Assembly: GCA_030144965.1 (NCBI GenBank)
Contig: JAMPUU010000015.1
Location: forward strand, 62,001 to 126,000
DNA: 64,000 bases
Direction of reading: 5' to 3'
DNA from: Nitrospira sp. BO4
GTDB lineage: Bacteria; Nitrospirota; Nitrospiria; Nitrospirales; Nitrospiraceae
Below, in pieces: positions 35,244 to 63,279 of this stretch. Position 1 is the first letter of the stretch, and every line of letters starts with the position of its first letter. Position numbers and translations under genes: made by a program. The notes under the pieces were generated by a model. The model was not told where the DNA came from. It saw nothing but the letters and a program-made list of their open reading frames with translations, and made no database searches.

Positions 35244-36419
35244 ATGATCTCAACCGCCCAGGTCCGACTCAATTCACCGCACATCCCAGAGGGCCGCCAT
35301 CTTTGGCTCTATGCCGGTCATCTGAGTCCGGTCACCGGGCAACCGGAGGCGGGTGGCCTGATCGATGTGCTGACAGCTGACGGCCGATTTTATGGACGCG
35401 GTCTCTATAGCCCTTCCTCGAAAATTCGAGTCCGCCTCTTGACGTTTCAGGATGAACCCATCGACGAGCGGTTCTGGAAGGGGAGAATTCAACAAGCGAT
35501 TCGTCTACGAGAACGGGTGGTCACCCATTCTGATGCCTATCGCGTGATTTTTGGTGAAGGAGATCGACTACCGGGCTTGATCGTCGATCGGTACGATCAG
35601 TTGCTGGTCATGCAGACTTTATCCGTGGGGATGGAGAGTCGGAAAGACCTTGTGGCGGACTTGCTGATTCAGGAATTGAAGGTCTCGAGCGTCTACTTGC
35701 GGAATGATGCTAAGAGCCGGCAACTCGAAGGACTGCCCCTCGAACGTGGCTTGCTTCGCGGCAACGGCCCCACACAAGTTCACATCCATGAAGGCGCCGC
35801 CCAGTTTGTGGTTGATGTGGAACGGGGACAAAAGACCGGGTGGTTTTGCGATCAACGGGAGAATCGGCTGGCGGCTGCCAAATTGGCGGCAGCAGCAGAG
35901 GTGTTGGAGGTGTTCTGCCATACCGGTGCCTTCGGCATTCATGCCGCCCTCGCCGGGGCCGCGTCGGTGGAGGGTTTGGATGCCAGCCAAGATACTCTCG
36001 CCATGGCACGAAAGCATGCCGCGATGAACCAGGTGGAGGATCGGTGCACGTATCGTCAAGCAGATGCGTTCGAAGACATGCGCCGTTTGGTCAAAGCCGG
36101 GCGGCGCTATGATCTTGTCATTCTTGATCCTCCGGCCTTTGCTCGCAGCAAGCAAGCCCTGGCCGGTGCGTTAGCGGGATACAAAGATATCAATCTTCTG
36201 GGATTGAAACTGTTGAAACCGGATGGGTTTCTCGTGACATGTAGTTGTTCTCATCCAGTCTCAGAGGTGGATCTCTGGAACAGCATTCGCCTCGCCGCGC
36301 GCGACGCCAAGCGAGACATCCGGCTCATCGAACAACGGGGCCAGAGTCCCGATCATCCGATCCTCGCCAGCATGCCGGAGACGCGGTATCTGAAGTGTTT
36401 CATTGTCCAAGTGTATTAG
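35244..36419 (+). CDS. SAM-dependent rRNA methyltransferase, RlmI-type
   Basis: 391 residues: an N-terminal PUA-type RNA-binding domain (about 1-75), a central EEHEE-like region with VIFGEGDRLPGLIVDRYDQL, and a C-terminal Rossmann methyltransferase domain. The C-terminal domain has EVLEVFCHTGAFGIHAAL (SAM-binding), the ILDPPAFARSK motif and the catalytic Cys segment VTCSCSHPVS. This is the layout of 23S rRNA m5C1962 methyltransferase RlmI and relatives. The exact target base is not certain in this phylum. Confidence 0.9.
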   Translation: MISTAQVRLNSPHIPEGRHLWLYAGHLSPVTGQPEAGGLIDVLTADGRFYGRGLYSPSSKIRVRLLTFQDEPIDERFWKGRIQQAIRLRERVVTHSDAYRVIFGEGDRLPGLIVDRYDQLLVMQTLSVGMESRKDLVADLLIQELKVSSVYLRNDAKSRQLEGLPLERGLLRGNGPTQVHIHEGAAQFVVDVERGQKTGWFCDQRENRLAAAKLAAAAEVLEVFCHTGAFGIHAALAGAASVEGLDASQDTLAMARKHAAMNQVEDRCTYRQADAFEDMRRLVKAGRRYDLVILDPPAFARSKQALAGALAGYKDINLLGLKLLKPDGFLVTCSCSHPVSEVDLWNSIRLAARDAKRDIRLIEQRGQSPDHPILASMPETRYLKCFIVQVY

Positions 36420-36651
36420 CAGGTCGCCTCACCAGTGCTGAGCGCCCGGTGTTCTAATAATACTCATTGGGGGTGGATTTGAAGGGTGAATGCGTGAAAG
36501 GATGGACAATAGGTCTCCACATGCCGTCCAGGGTTTCGCCTGGTTGTTGAGACGCTGAATTCAAGGGTATGAGACGTTGAGCCTGTTCAGTAGGGGGAAG
36601 CAAATTGTGTGAAGGGGTCGGAATGTCAGTACAGCAGCGGCGGTTGGTGAT

Positions 36652-37491
36652 ATGAGGCACGTGTCACGGTTCAATGAAAGCACACTCGAAGAGTCGAATG
36701 ACCGATGTGTCAGAATACTCTGGACGGGCGGATGGGATTCGACATTCAGAGTCTTGTACGCAGCATTGGTCGATGGAAAGAGAGTAGAACCGCACTACAT
36801 CATTGATATTACCAGACCATCAAGCATCCGCGAACTCCAAGCGATATCCGACATAAAGGCCATGCTGAGGACTTCTCACAAAGAAGCCTATGAGAGAATC
36901 GCTCCTCTTCAAATCACTCCGGGAAATGAGATTCCTGAAGATCCTGAAATTTCGAGCGCATGGAAACGGCTGAAGGAAAGAGCCTTCTTGGGGTATCAGT
37001 ATGATTGGTTGGCCCGCTATGCCAAATCGAAAAACGTAACAGACCTAGAACTCAGTGTGCACATAGATGACAAACTCTATTCGTTCTTGAAAGGGCATAT
37101 TGAGCAGACTTCGGAAGGAGGATACCGGTTGCAGCGCCGTGTAACCGGAGACGAAAGCATATTCCTCCGATTTGAATTCCCTATCCTCGACTACTCCAAA
37201 ACGCACATGAGAGAGATGGCGCGACAACATGGGTTTCTTGAGATTCTGGAAAAAACATGGTTTTGTCACAAACCGATAAACGGAATGCCCTGCGGCATGT
37301 GCAGTCCTTGCGTCTACGCAGTTGAGGAAGGGATGCGGTATAGACTTCCAAGAGAAGCCATGTTCCGATATCACACGCGCCGCTATAGAAGGGCCATCCG
37401 GGCCCCGTTTGTATCGATGAGAAAGTCGCTCTCAGAAGTGAAGGTGCTGCGACGAGTCTACGACTTGTTGCGCTATGGGTCGTCGAACTGA
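36652..37491 (+). CDS. QueC-like PP-loop protein with zinc-cluster motif
   Basis: A 279-residue PP-loop ATPase. The pyrophosphate loop is TGGWDS (25-30). C205-x8-C214-x2-C217-x2-C220 (CHKPINGMPCGMCSPC) has the same spacing as the QueC zinc site. The middle part differs from classical QueC, which is about 230 residues, and carries a basic C-terminal tail. The other queuosine genes are absent from the window, and base composition is AT-richer than its neighbours. It converges on an asparagine-synthase-like gene, another PP-loop enzyme. It is more likely a paralogue acting on a different carboxylate than the preQ0 synthase. Confidence 0.75.
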   Translation: MRHVSRFNESTLEESNDRCVRILWTGGWDSTFRVLYAALVDGKRVEPHYIIDITRPSSIRELQAISDIKAMLRTSHKEAYERIAPLQITPGNEIPEDPEISSAWKRLKERAFLGYQYDWLARYAKSKNVTDLELSVHIDDKLYSFLKGHIEQTSEGGYRLQRRVTGDESIFLRFEFPILDYSKTHMREMARQHGFLEILEKTWFCHKPINGMPCGMCSPCVYAVEEGMRYRLPREAMFRYHTRRYRRAIRAPFVSMRKSLSEVKVLRRVYDLLRYGSSN

Positions 37492-37567
37492 CTGATCTCT
37501 CCCCCCAAACAACGGCAAGCGAAAAGTAGAACAACCCCTTTTAAAGCACCACCCGACGTAGTTGGGG

Positions 37568-39013
37568 TCAAAAGATGGTCCCCATGCCCATGTAGCGCCG
37601 TTTGGCGTGTTCCAGTGCCCAAGGGAAGAGGTTGAAAAAGTAATTCGGAAAGTGTCGCCTGCCCTTCAGATATAACATCAAGCTGTGCGCGTGAGCTCTC
37701 CAGCTGAGTGGAAGCATTCGACCTCGCTCCCACCCGGGCACACCATGGTGCCGTAGCCATCGTGTGTAGTCTTGCATGGACTCATCGGGAAGAAACCCCT
37801 CGTCGGAATTCCAAAGCACAACAGCGGTGGCATTCTTTTCTCGACCGAAGAGGTCGCGCTCGACGCCGGCCTCCTCGACGATCCGTCGACAAATCGGACG
37901 GTCGTAATCGCCGCCCACACTCCAGGGTTTCATCTCCTCGCCGAGGGACACTCGATGGATGTGCTCGATATTTCGCACACCAAGGAACGTCGCCGGGCAA
38001 TGGATGAATCCTACCCATAACCGCCACTCACTAAGCGCGAGCCCGGAGGGCGCTCCGTTCCGAACGATGTTCGGTGTCAGATCGAAATCGCCGATGCCCC
38101 ACACGGTGTCTCCATGGTGCCCGGTCAGTAAGACTCGTCCTTGCAAACAGGATCGCGCCGCAACGAAGTGCACATCCATCCCATACGCGTCGGCGGCAAG
38201 AAACGGAACCTCCGCGAATGGCTCCCGTCGCCAGCTTGTCCGGTCGAGCACGATGGCATTCAGACCGAGCCGGGTCGCGATGGTCTCACCGCTATCCGCC
38301 AGTCCTTCGCGTCCCTGTGGGAACGTCAGCACCTGCGTATTCCCCATTGCTCGGGCCAGGACGGCGATCGTGGGGGAGTCATACCCTGCGGAAAGGGTCC
38401 CCAGAGGGCTATATGGCCACTTGCGCAGGGGATCTGCCATGTTCCGACCGATGGCGCTGAGCGATGTTTCTAGAAAGTTCTTGTACGCTTCGAACGTGTC
38501 AAAGCGCCTGTCGCCGAACGGTTTCTCAACTACGTTGAGCGATCGGCCATCCCATCGAAGATTGTGAAAATACGTGAGGCGTAACGGTCCTTGGTTCGTC
38601 TGCAGGAGAGGTTGGTACTTGTGAATGCCGTGCTGAATCGAGCGGAAAGTCGAATAGTAGTGATCCGAGAAGGGATCGACCGAAAGATTCAGCGCGGCGC
38701 ACAGCGCGACCAGAGAATTTGAAACGTAAACGTATTTCCCAACCTGGATGGAAAGCAAACGATCGACCGTGGAGCCGGAGGACACAAAGGTGATGGTTCT
38801 ACCGGACACTCGACCTCCGGACCCGAATACGAGGTCCGTTTGATCCAACCGGCCTTCGCCGAACGAACCGTCCCATACCGCTTCCGCAAACCACTCCGGC
38901 CTGGTTTCCACCCGGCTACCGTGCGCGAGCACCACGTCGGTTTCGGAACATCGCGCCATCCACGCCAGTGAGGGCCATCCTAGAATATGCCTGAACTGCA
39001 ACTGGATGCCCAT
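37568..39013 (-). CDS. Asparagine-synthase-like PP-loop protein with degenerate glutaminase part
   Basis: A 481-residue protein from ATG 39013 (a TTG at 39049 is less likely). The synthetase domain starts near residue 170, with PP-loop LSAGYDSPTIAVLA (SAGYDS 208-213) and later LLTGHHGDTVWG. The N-terminal part is shaped like the Ntn glutaminase domain of AsnB, but it does not begin with Met-Cys-Gly and has no N-terminal catalytic Cys, so glutamine use is not expected. Such proteins are usually modification enzymes in secondary or surface-polymer pathways. It converges on the QueC-like gene with 76 nt between. Confidence 0.75.
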   Translation of the reverse strand: MGIQLQFRHILGWPSLAWMARCSETDVVLAHGSRVETRPEWFAEAVWDGSFGEGRLDQTDLVFGSGGRVSGRTITFVSSGSTVDRLLSIQVGKYVYVSNSLVALCAALNLSVDPFSDHYYSTFRSIQHGIHKYQPLLQTNQGPLRLTYFHNLRWDGRSLNVVEKPFGDRRFDTFEAYKNFLETSLSAIGRNMADPLRKWPYSPLGTLSAGYDSPTIAVLARAMGNTQVLTFPQGREGLADSGETIATRLGLNAIVLDRTSWRREPFAEVPFLAADAYGMDVHFVAARSCLQGRVLLTGHHGDTVWGIGDFDLTPNIVRNGAPSGLALSEWRLWVGFIHCPATFLGVRNIEHIHRVSLGEEMKPWSVGGDYDRPICRRIVEEAGVERDLFGREKNATAVVLWNSDEGFLPDESMQDYTRWLRHHGVPGWERGRMLPLSWRAHAHSLMLYLKGRRHFPNYFFNLFPWALEHAKRRYMGMGTIF

Positions 39014-39372
39014 AGATCCCGATATCCTGCAATAAGACTGCGCGTTCAAGCGTATGATGGCAGGACGGGAGTGGCGGTAGACGCGTGCGCTCCCTTGCCA
39101 AACCGGCCTTTCAGACCATCATTTGGAGTGTACGTTTCGGCCACCTCTACGGGCAAGCTTCTTTTTGGCATAACCAAGACAGCAGCCGGATTCTCCGTCG
39201 TGACCTAGGGGGACGGCTAGTACCTTCGTCTTCGGCTCCGACGCTAGAATCGCCCTCGCATATCGCTGAGCGGGCTGTTGCTGTCATCGACGGTAGGCGA
39301 AGTCTGAGTGCCATACGAACACGTGAGACGAATAGGGTTATTCCATTGGACTGAGCGGAAGGAGATGAAATT
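39014..39372. other. Divergent intergenic region
   Basis: No gene or structured element is evident. It should contain promoters for the asparagine-synthase-like gene (minus) and the 130-aa gene (plus); no clear -35/-10 pair was found. AAGGAG near its right end is the ribosome site of the next gene. Confidence 0.4.
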
Positions 39373-61842: not shown

Positions 61843-63279
61843 ATGGGTGACCCAAAAGGCTTCATGAAATATGCCCGTGAGGGCCCGAAGCGAAAGCCGG
61901 TCGAGTTGCGTGTGCTCGATTGGAAGGAAATGTACGAGCCGATCGCCGAAGAGAAGCTGAAGACTCAAGGCGCGCGCTGTATGGATTGCGGTGTGCCGTT
62001 TTGCCAGGGTAACACCGGCTGTCCCGTGGTCAATCTGATCCCGGAGTGGAACGATCTCGTCTATCGCGGCCGCTGGAAAGACGCGCTCAAGGCCCTGCAT
62101 ACGACGAATAACTTTCCAGAGTTTACCGGCCGTCTCTGTCCCGCGCCCTGCGAAGGGGCTTGTGTGTTGGGTATCAACGAAGATCCGGTTTCCATTCGCA
62201 TCATCGAATGGAACATCGTCGATCGCGGCTTCAACGATGGACTTGTCACTCCGATATTGCCGGTCGTCAAAACCGGGAAAACGGTGGCGATCGTCGGCTC
62301 CGGTCCGGCGGGGCTCGCTGCCGCGCAGCAACTGGCTCGGGCCGGCCATGACGTGACCCTTTTCGAGAAAGCCGATCGGATCGGCGGCCTGCTTCGCTAC
62401 GGCATTCCCGACTTCAAAATGGAAAAGTGGGTTATCGACAGGCGATTGGAGCAGATGAAGGTCGAGGGAGTGAAGTTTCAAACCGGCGTCGCGGTCGGAA
62501 AGGACATCACCGGCGAGCAGTTGCGCAAACAGTTCGACGCCGTGGGTTTGACGCTCGGCGCCGAACAGGCCCGCGAGCTGCCGATTCCAGGAAGAGAACT
62601 CAAGGGCGTGCATCTCGCGATGGAATACCTCACCCAGCAAAACAAGCGCACGGCAGGCATTCCTCTCAGCGATGAGCCGATCACCGCGAAAGGCAAACGA
62701 GTGGTCATCATCGGCGGGGGTGATACGGGATCCGACTGTCTCGGGACCACGCATCGCCAAGGCTGCGTCGAAGCGCATCAATTTGAGTTGCTATCGGAGC
62801 CCCCGCCGCAGCGTGCCGAGTCAACCCCTTGGCCGCTCTGGCCGATGCAACTGCGCACGTCGCATGCTCATGAAGAAGGCTGTGATCGGCAATGGAGCGT
62901 GTCCACGACGAAGTTTACCGGCCACAATGGCCATGTCACCAAGCTGCACGGGCATCGCGTGCAGTTCAGCAACGGCAAGTTCACGCCTGTTCCCAACACC
63001 GAGTTCGAGATGAACGCCGATCTGGTGCTGCTGGCCATGGGGTTCACCGGTCCGATCAAGAACGGCCTGCTCGATGACCTGGGTGTGAAGTATGACGCGC
63101 GTGGGGCTGTGACGGTCGACGGGAACTTCATGACCAACCTTGACGGCGTCTTCGCCGGCGGCGACACGAAACGCGGCGCCTCACTCATCGTCTGGGCCAT
63201 CGCCGAAGGGCGAAAAATGGCGGCGGGTATCGATCAGTATCTGCATGCCGGAAAATCCGCGAAGGTGTCTGTGAAATGA
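61843..63279 (+). CDS. gltD: Glutamate synthase small subunit
   Basis: Feeds NAD(P)H electrons to GltB through FAD and two 4Fe-4S clusters. Cluster ligands are visible at Cys46, 49, 54, 60 and Cys99, 103, 107. The FAD site is VGSGPAGLAAAQQLARAG (from 151) and the NAD(P)H site is VVIIGGGDTGSDCLG. The length of 478 residues is typical. It lies 222 nt after gltB, an unusually wide spacer for this pair. No clear Shine-Dalgarno precedes the ATG. Confidence 0.96.
   Translation: MGDPKGFMKYAREGPKRKPVELRVLDWKEMYEPIAEEKLKTQGARCMDCGVPFCQGNTGCPVVNLIPEWNDLVYRGRWKDALKALHTTNNFPEFTGRLCPAPCEGACVLGINEDPVSIRIIEWNIVDRGFNDGLVTPILPVVKTGKTVAIVGSGPAGLAAAQQLARAGHDVTLFEKADRIGGLLRYGIPDFKMEKWVIDRRLEQMKVEGVKFQTGVAVGKDITGEQLRKQFDAVGLTLGAEQARELPIPGRELKGVHLAMEYLTQQNKRTAGIPLSDEPITAKGKRVVIIGGGDTGSDCLGTTHRQGCVEAHQFELLSEPPPQRAESTPWPLWPMQLRTSHAHEEGCDRQWSVSTTKFTGHNGHVTKLHGHRVQFSNGKFTPVPNTEFEMNADLVLLAMGFTGPIKNGLLDDLGVKYDARGAVTVDGNFMTNLDGVFAGGDTKRGASLIVWAIAEGRKMAAGIDQYLHAGKSAKVSVK

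Follow-up and report, generated by a model that had tools for sequence, protein, structure and literature searches.

The window is a stretch of 64,000 nt (positions 62001–126000 of contig C15 in a 4.7-Mb Nitrospira genome). It contains an rlmI-like 23S rRNA methyltransferase gene at positions 35244–36419 on the plus strand, which was assigned by Pfam (PUA_3 and Methyltrans_SAM). The 3' end of this gene lies in a segment (positions 36275–36432, plus strand) that has diverged partial copies beyond the window, as found by a search of the same genome and by mapping of the remnants. Downstream on the same strand is a gene for a QueC-like PP-loop ATPase (positions 36652–37491, 279 aa). It is convergent with a gene for an AsnB-like PP-loop ligase that has a glutaminase-like domain lacking Cys (positions 37568–39013, minus strand, 481 aa from the ATG), and the two genes are 76 bp apart. 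The AsnB-like start is the ATG at 39013 (MGIQLQF), with the mechanical open reading frame extending to a TTG at 39049. Both reading frames are intact. No terminator site was found in the 76 bp gap, and terminator counts are no better than those in shuffled sequences. There are no queuosine or asparagine pathway genes adjoining the pair, as the sequence-only reading of this DNA had noted.

The QueC-like protein has the PP-loop WTGGWDST and a zinc site of the form C-x8-C-x2-C-x2-C. Its match to PF06508 is 24.1 bits (cut-off 22) and is limited to residues 172–221, i.e., the zinc-site region. The AlphaFold model is confident (pLDDT 93.4), but the top structural hits to it are PP-loop enzymes of a generic kind, at a TM of approximately 0.3–0.4. 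The protein is 48–60 residues longer than QueC of E. coli (231 aa) and B. subtilis (219 aa). The long C-terminal tail remarked on earlier is present as a predicted helix (residues 234–274), but it is poorly conserved among relatives.

The QueC-like family comprises 35 loci from one scan of species genomes, and these were compared in an alignment of 35 rows. The PP-loop has the form TGGWDS[ST] in 32 of the 35 relatives and SGG in one only, whereas canonical QueC has SGGxDS. The Cys4 zinc motif is found in 33/35, with a spacing of 8–10 (8 in the window protein). Residues P47, Y49, R55, E61, Q116 and C205 are invariant, and 29/35 members match PF06508 at E ≤ 0.01. A profile of the family aligns with B. 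subtilis QueC (3BL5) at E = 1.4e-4 with the PP-loop and zinc site in the right order, and it also matches QueC 2PG3 over both motifs. The alignment to 3BL5 indicates that the family is a true relative of canonical QueC (PF06508 cluster 1), which is likewise a PP-loop ATPase with a C-x8-C-x2-C-x2-C zinc site. The same alignment speaks for the protein being a divergent QueC with a role in queuosine synthesis, but this interpretation is extremely improbable. The motifs YxQxHxxE, VPxRN and YPDC define canonical QueC according to PMC13329287. Each of these substrate-binding motifs is found in 0/35 of the relatives, and all three are found in a separate, full-length QueC of the same genome (C17:464184–464825, 239.8 bits). 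The window protein is thus not the only QueC in its genome, and a bona fide queC, which the sequence-only reading had proposed to look for, is present. A separate full QueC is also encoded in each of the four related Nitrospira genomes that carry the QueC-like gene. Canonical QueC is absent from 15/35 carrier genomes, an argument of lower grade because some of these are drafts or MAGs. The family shows no tie to the 7-deazaguanine pathway, and a queuosine role was rejected on the basis of the separate QueC and the missing canonical motifs.

Members of the QueC-like family are found in Pseudomonadota, Bacillota, Bacteroidota and Nitrospirota, with single members in other phyla. In the loci surveyed the gene is mostly solo, with no recurring partner gene. 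The Nitrospira members are in two separate groups of the tree, which is consistent with repeated acquisition of the gene by Nitrospira. In Shimia ponticola there are two tandem QueC-like genes directly behind a sigma-factor-like gene (L072:8025–9610, by eye). In two Thioalkalivibrio genomes (L063:7616–7702 and L065:7643–7729) the QueC-like gene is directly downstream of tRNA-Leu(taa); tRNA genes are typical insertion sites. A family of Mur-ligase-like genes (GITGSxGKTTTK) is located near the QueC-like gene in L057, L059, L076 and L077.

The neighborhoods of the family show a bias toward glycan loci. Glycan-enzyme seeds taken from other loci were used, and a glycosyltransferase or a TupA-like ATP-grasp protein was scored. 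Glycan enzymes are encoded at 13 of 33 QueC-like loci outside Nitrospira and at 0 of 20 canonical queC loci (Fisher p = 0.0008), the control loci consisting of 15 from the same non-Nitrospira genomes and five from Nitrospira carriers. Three of the four other Nitrospira QueC-like loci tested are in glycan regions, and no glycan-enzyme match was found at 14 rlmI loci. In the window, and at a second Nitrospira locus behind rlmI (L045), no glycan locus adjoins the QueC-like gene. The AsnB-like loci are in glycan regions in 4/15 cases, two of these with a TupA-like gene immediately upstream. Several glycan loci of Nitrospira (L082:7979–9196, L084, L092, L089 and L095) encode secreted right-handed beta-helix-like proteins that start with ATYYVATTGSDSNPGT, next to QueC-like as well as AsnB-like genes.

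From the fold and the motifs, the QueC-like PP-loop would adenylate a carboxyl group, on a substrate different from 7-carboxy-7-deazaguanine, and the enzyme would then join ammonia or an amine to the activated carboxyl, most likely on a surface-glycan precursor. The enrichment of loci supports such a role in modifying surface-glycan precursors through carboxylate activation. A surface-glycan role of the family is our best guess and is a case of guilt by association, all the sites concerned being variable regions. A PP-loop enzyme in an O-antigen or surface-glycan context has a precedent in the WbpG-type N-sugar amidotransferases, which are given as PF06508 cluster 5 with the Cys pattern CxxC-x6-CxC in PMC13329287. 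By this published description the QueC-like protein is set apart from the WbpG type, as both the Cys pattern and the motifs differ. The family can be described as a cross-phylum branch of QueC relatives in which the substrate motifs are altered and the loci are biased toward glycan regions. The WTGGWDST clade is not described in the available text of PMC13279940 or PMC13329287.

The AsnB-like protein of the window has no Pfam match, and none of the 18 aligned members of its family matches Asn_synthase or GATase. The PP-loop is S-x-G-Y-D-S. The N-terminal domain is conserved but the nucleophile is missing, with Cys at position 2 found in 0/18 relatives. The earlier description of the protein as "glutaminase-less" is therefore correct as to the catalytic Cys and incorrect as to the glutaminase-like domain itself, which is present. 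The structural model is of modest confidence (pLDDT 74.7). By Foldseek its best match is beta-lactam synthetase 1mbz (E = 1.9e-10), followed by carbapenam synthetase 1q15 (E = 6.6e-9) and AsnB. The alignment with beta-lactam synthetase extends over the full model and both of its domains. The beta-lactam and carbapenam synthetases also have a two-domain AsnB fold without the catalytic Cys. However, the identity to them is only 12–15%, and no beta-lactam genes were recognized nearby. By analogy with beta-lactam synthetase, the AsnB-like enzyme would activate a carboxylate by adenylation, with an amine other than ammonia from glutamine as the co-substrate.

Relatives of the AsnB-like protein are found in 13 of 147 Nitrospirales genomes, with five copies in the genome of the window. 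A second copy, 76% identical, is located just beyond the window (C15:128108–129565). Seven strong Asn_synthase proteins are encoded elsewhere in the same genome. The residues that define QueC and AsnB are altered in the two window proteins, and with a separate QueC and these Asn_synthase proteins present, the earlier view that both PP-loop enzymes are non-housekeeping forms is upheld. In contig C8 of genome G042 (L040, L042 and L044) an AsnB-like copy is divided among three open reading frames in different frames and is apparently a pseudogene. In two genomes (L087:4824–8014 and L093:10101–13292) the AsnB-like gene is followed by two conserved genes, one of which is urea-carboxylase-associated DUF1989-like (by eye).

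The sequence-only reading had proposed that the two enzymes act in one amidation or modification pathway, in which one activates a carboxylate and the other adds or transfers an amine. The two genes are adjacent in the window and both encode PP-loop ligases. Each family is also found on its own in glycan loci, and some of these include a TupA-like ATP-grasp gene, which is a weak common thread. Within Nitrospirales the two families overlap in two genomes compared with 0.44 expected (p = 0.06), but they are adjacent only here; in the complete genome G061 the genes are 34 kb apart. The AsnB-like family is found in 0/30 of the non-Nitrospira carriers of the QueC-like gene, with a query that finds relatives of approximately 30% identity within Nitrospirales. 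At QueC-like loci outside the window, no AsnB-like gene is present within 8 kb. The close AsnB-like subfamily (>70% identity) overlaps with the QueC-like gene in the genome of the window only, and it is present in genome G010 without a QueC-like gene. The convergent orientation means that the pair does not form an operon. A joint pathway is thus quite unlikely. The lack of co-occurrence, named beforehand as the result that would count against it, is essentially what is observed. The QueC-like and AsnB-like genes are probably separate accessory genes that share a place. The original interpretation is partly supported, i.e., for the unusual PP-loop enzymes but not for their partnership.

The shared place is the 3' end of rlmI. 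A search with the rlmI C-terminus covered 73 Nitrospira genomes that have rlmI, and it found truncated extra copies of the rlmI 3' end in 14 of them (the genome of the window and 13 others). In all loci read, the remnants are downstream of an intact rlmI and in the same orientation. At L045 (genome G035) the order is rlmI, a ParE/Phd-type toxin-antitoxin (TA) cassette, rlmI 3' remnant, QueC-like gene, rlmI 3' remnant. The second AsnB-like copy in the genome of the window has a similar arrangement (VapBC, rlmI 3' remnant, AsnB-like gene, rlmI 3' remnant), and its flanking remnants are at C15:127866–128024 (window coordinate 65866–66024; 81% identical) and C15:129726–129807 (84% identical). Empty sites were found in three cases. 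In these, the remnant and the DNA downstream of it can be followed along an intact rlmI and the adjoining sequence of another genome, over 1,002 nt at 94.7% identity, at least 2,175 nt at 91% and 847 nt at 83%. The empty sites in relatives indicate that the intervening DNA was inserted and that the rlmI 3' end was duplicated. At the level of genome sequence, these comparisons demonstrate that Nitrospira carries foreign genes between an intact rlmI and a 5'-truncated rlmI 3' end, the insertion evidently restoring rlmI and leaving a diverged direct repeat. The most probable explanation of the window pair, with a probability of roughly 75%, is that two independent genes were successively inserted behind the rlmI 3' end and do not represent a two-gene pathway.

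The cargo scan covered the entire interval between rlmI and the first conserved gene downstream of it, and it gave 102 open reading frames. These include eight cyanases, five PIN toxins, three TIR proteins and three asparagine synthetases, as well as transposases, NACHT/nSTAND proteins and a DNA methylase, a content typical for an accessory island. Cyanase (CYNS_N and Cyanate_lyase, L134–L147) is the most common cargo, which is notable in a nitrifier. A phage-integrase match was found for one of the 102 open reading frames; L141:8073–9227, considered as the source of this match, was rejected, as it has no Pfam match.

The TA, TIR and NACHT/nSTAND genes at this site are compatible with a stand-alone anti-phage role of the QueC-like protein, which would attach a nucleobase-like group to a partner protein; this is the activity of Cap9 and the one proposed for QatC. 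The distribution of the gene is patchy and crosses phyla, and members of the QueC family serve in phage defense according to PMC13279940 and PMC13329287. QatC and Cap9 also reuse the QueC scaffold outside queuosine synthesis, and QatC is also without the CDG-binding motif (PMC13279940). The suggested comparison with QatC shows differences as well. The QueC-like protein does not have the QatC-type N-terminal domain, and its zinc spacing is that of QueC, unlike QatC. No qatA/B/D or CD-NTase neighbors were seen in the Pfam scan of the window or, by eye, among neighboring open reading frames in related loci. The CDG motifs retained by Cap9 are absent from the family, none of 50,697 phage and 72,556 plasmid records contains the gene, and the enrichment is in glycan loci. 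PADLOC gives only a weak QueC match (25 bits); with no partner genes, membership in a known defense system was rejected, and the stand-alone anti-phage role is unlikely.

The remnants begin 87–319 nt before the end of rlmI. Their 5' edges cluster at -111 to -127 (8/21, near -117) and at -214 to -220 (5/21, near -216), although the clusters are not independent evidence in that some inserts are related by descent. A dedicated site-specific recombinase with an attachment site in rlmI is a possible, although not the favored, source of the repeats. It would account for the clusters and for the mapped remnants, all of which correspond to the final 320 nt of rlmI and are located behind the gene in its own orientation. 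The single phage-integrase match could represent such an enzyme. However, the edges differ even for the same TA cassette, the repeat copies are only approximately 74–95% identical with no identical core, and most inserts encode no recombinase. A similar duplication is also present at another gene: in L051 (genome G068) the QueC-like gene is behind a gene for an AMP-binding enzyme, and the 3' end of that gene is present in duplicate (144 nt, 74%). The repeats at L051 were considered as integron attC sites, but this was rejected because they represent the upstream gene's 3' end. Repeats at L049 proved to be tRNA genes.

The variable edges, the diverged repeats and the few recombinases favor recombination at rlmI on one side with illegitimate joining on the other. 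The incoming DNA would have brought its own rlmI 3' end and, on that side, recombined with the rlmI already in place. The other side would have been joined at varying points in the last 90–320 nt of the old rlmI, by one-sided homology or by a recombinase with a loose site. Homology-facilitated illegitimate recombination (PMC3240628) is a process of one-sided homology and fits the varying boundaries better than a dedicated recombinase. As a further possibility, which is rather doubtful, the rlmI 3' end may be an integron-like stacking site, where cassettes of one or two genes without a recombinase are added successively directly behind rlmI by a recombinase acting in trans. Each cassette would then bring a new rlmI 3' end, by which the gene is restored and the older cassettes are displaced downstream. 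Integrative elements at gene 3' ends offer a comparison; SCC elements such as SCCmec, for example, insert at rlmH and restore its 3' end. Here too the insertion is behind an rRNA methyltransferase gene, with the 3' end restored and a repeat left. In Nitrospira, however, the repeats are long and diverged, the boundaries vary, and the inserts are small and mostly without a recombinase.

The array in the window itself is broken. The probable distal edge of the AsnB-like cassette is in the segment at 39014–39161, where the sequence upstream of the AsnB-like gene matches the second copy to approximately position 39161. At this point the rlmI 3' remnant starts in the second copy, whereas other chromosomal sequence starts in the window. 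There is no rlmI remnant directly after the QueC-like/AsnB-like pair; the next remnants are approximately 29.5 kb downstream. This missing remnant counts against the insertion of the two genes behind rlmI as applied to the window. The two halves of the rlmI array are separated by approximately 27 kb of chromosomal genes, including gltD (window 39165–64000, continuing to C15:127.8 kb). Beyond this stretch are VapBC, the second AsnB-like gene with the two rlmI remnants that flank it, and genes that are located behind rlmI in related genomes. Relatives have gltD either on a different contig or at a great distance from rlmI (1.4 Mb in G061 and approximately 0.5 Mb in G018). The interposed gltD stretch, located elsewhere in relatives, suggests that a later rearrangement split the array.

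An account based on place thus replaces the proposed pathway, and it can be checked by genome comparison. The 3' end of rlmI would represent a recurrent acquisition site in nitrite-oxidizing bacteria, one that gathers cyanase, toxin-antitoxin and defense-type genes.
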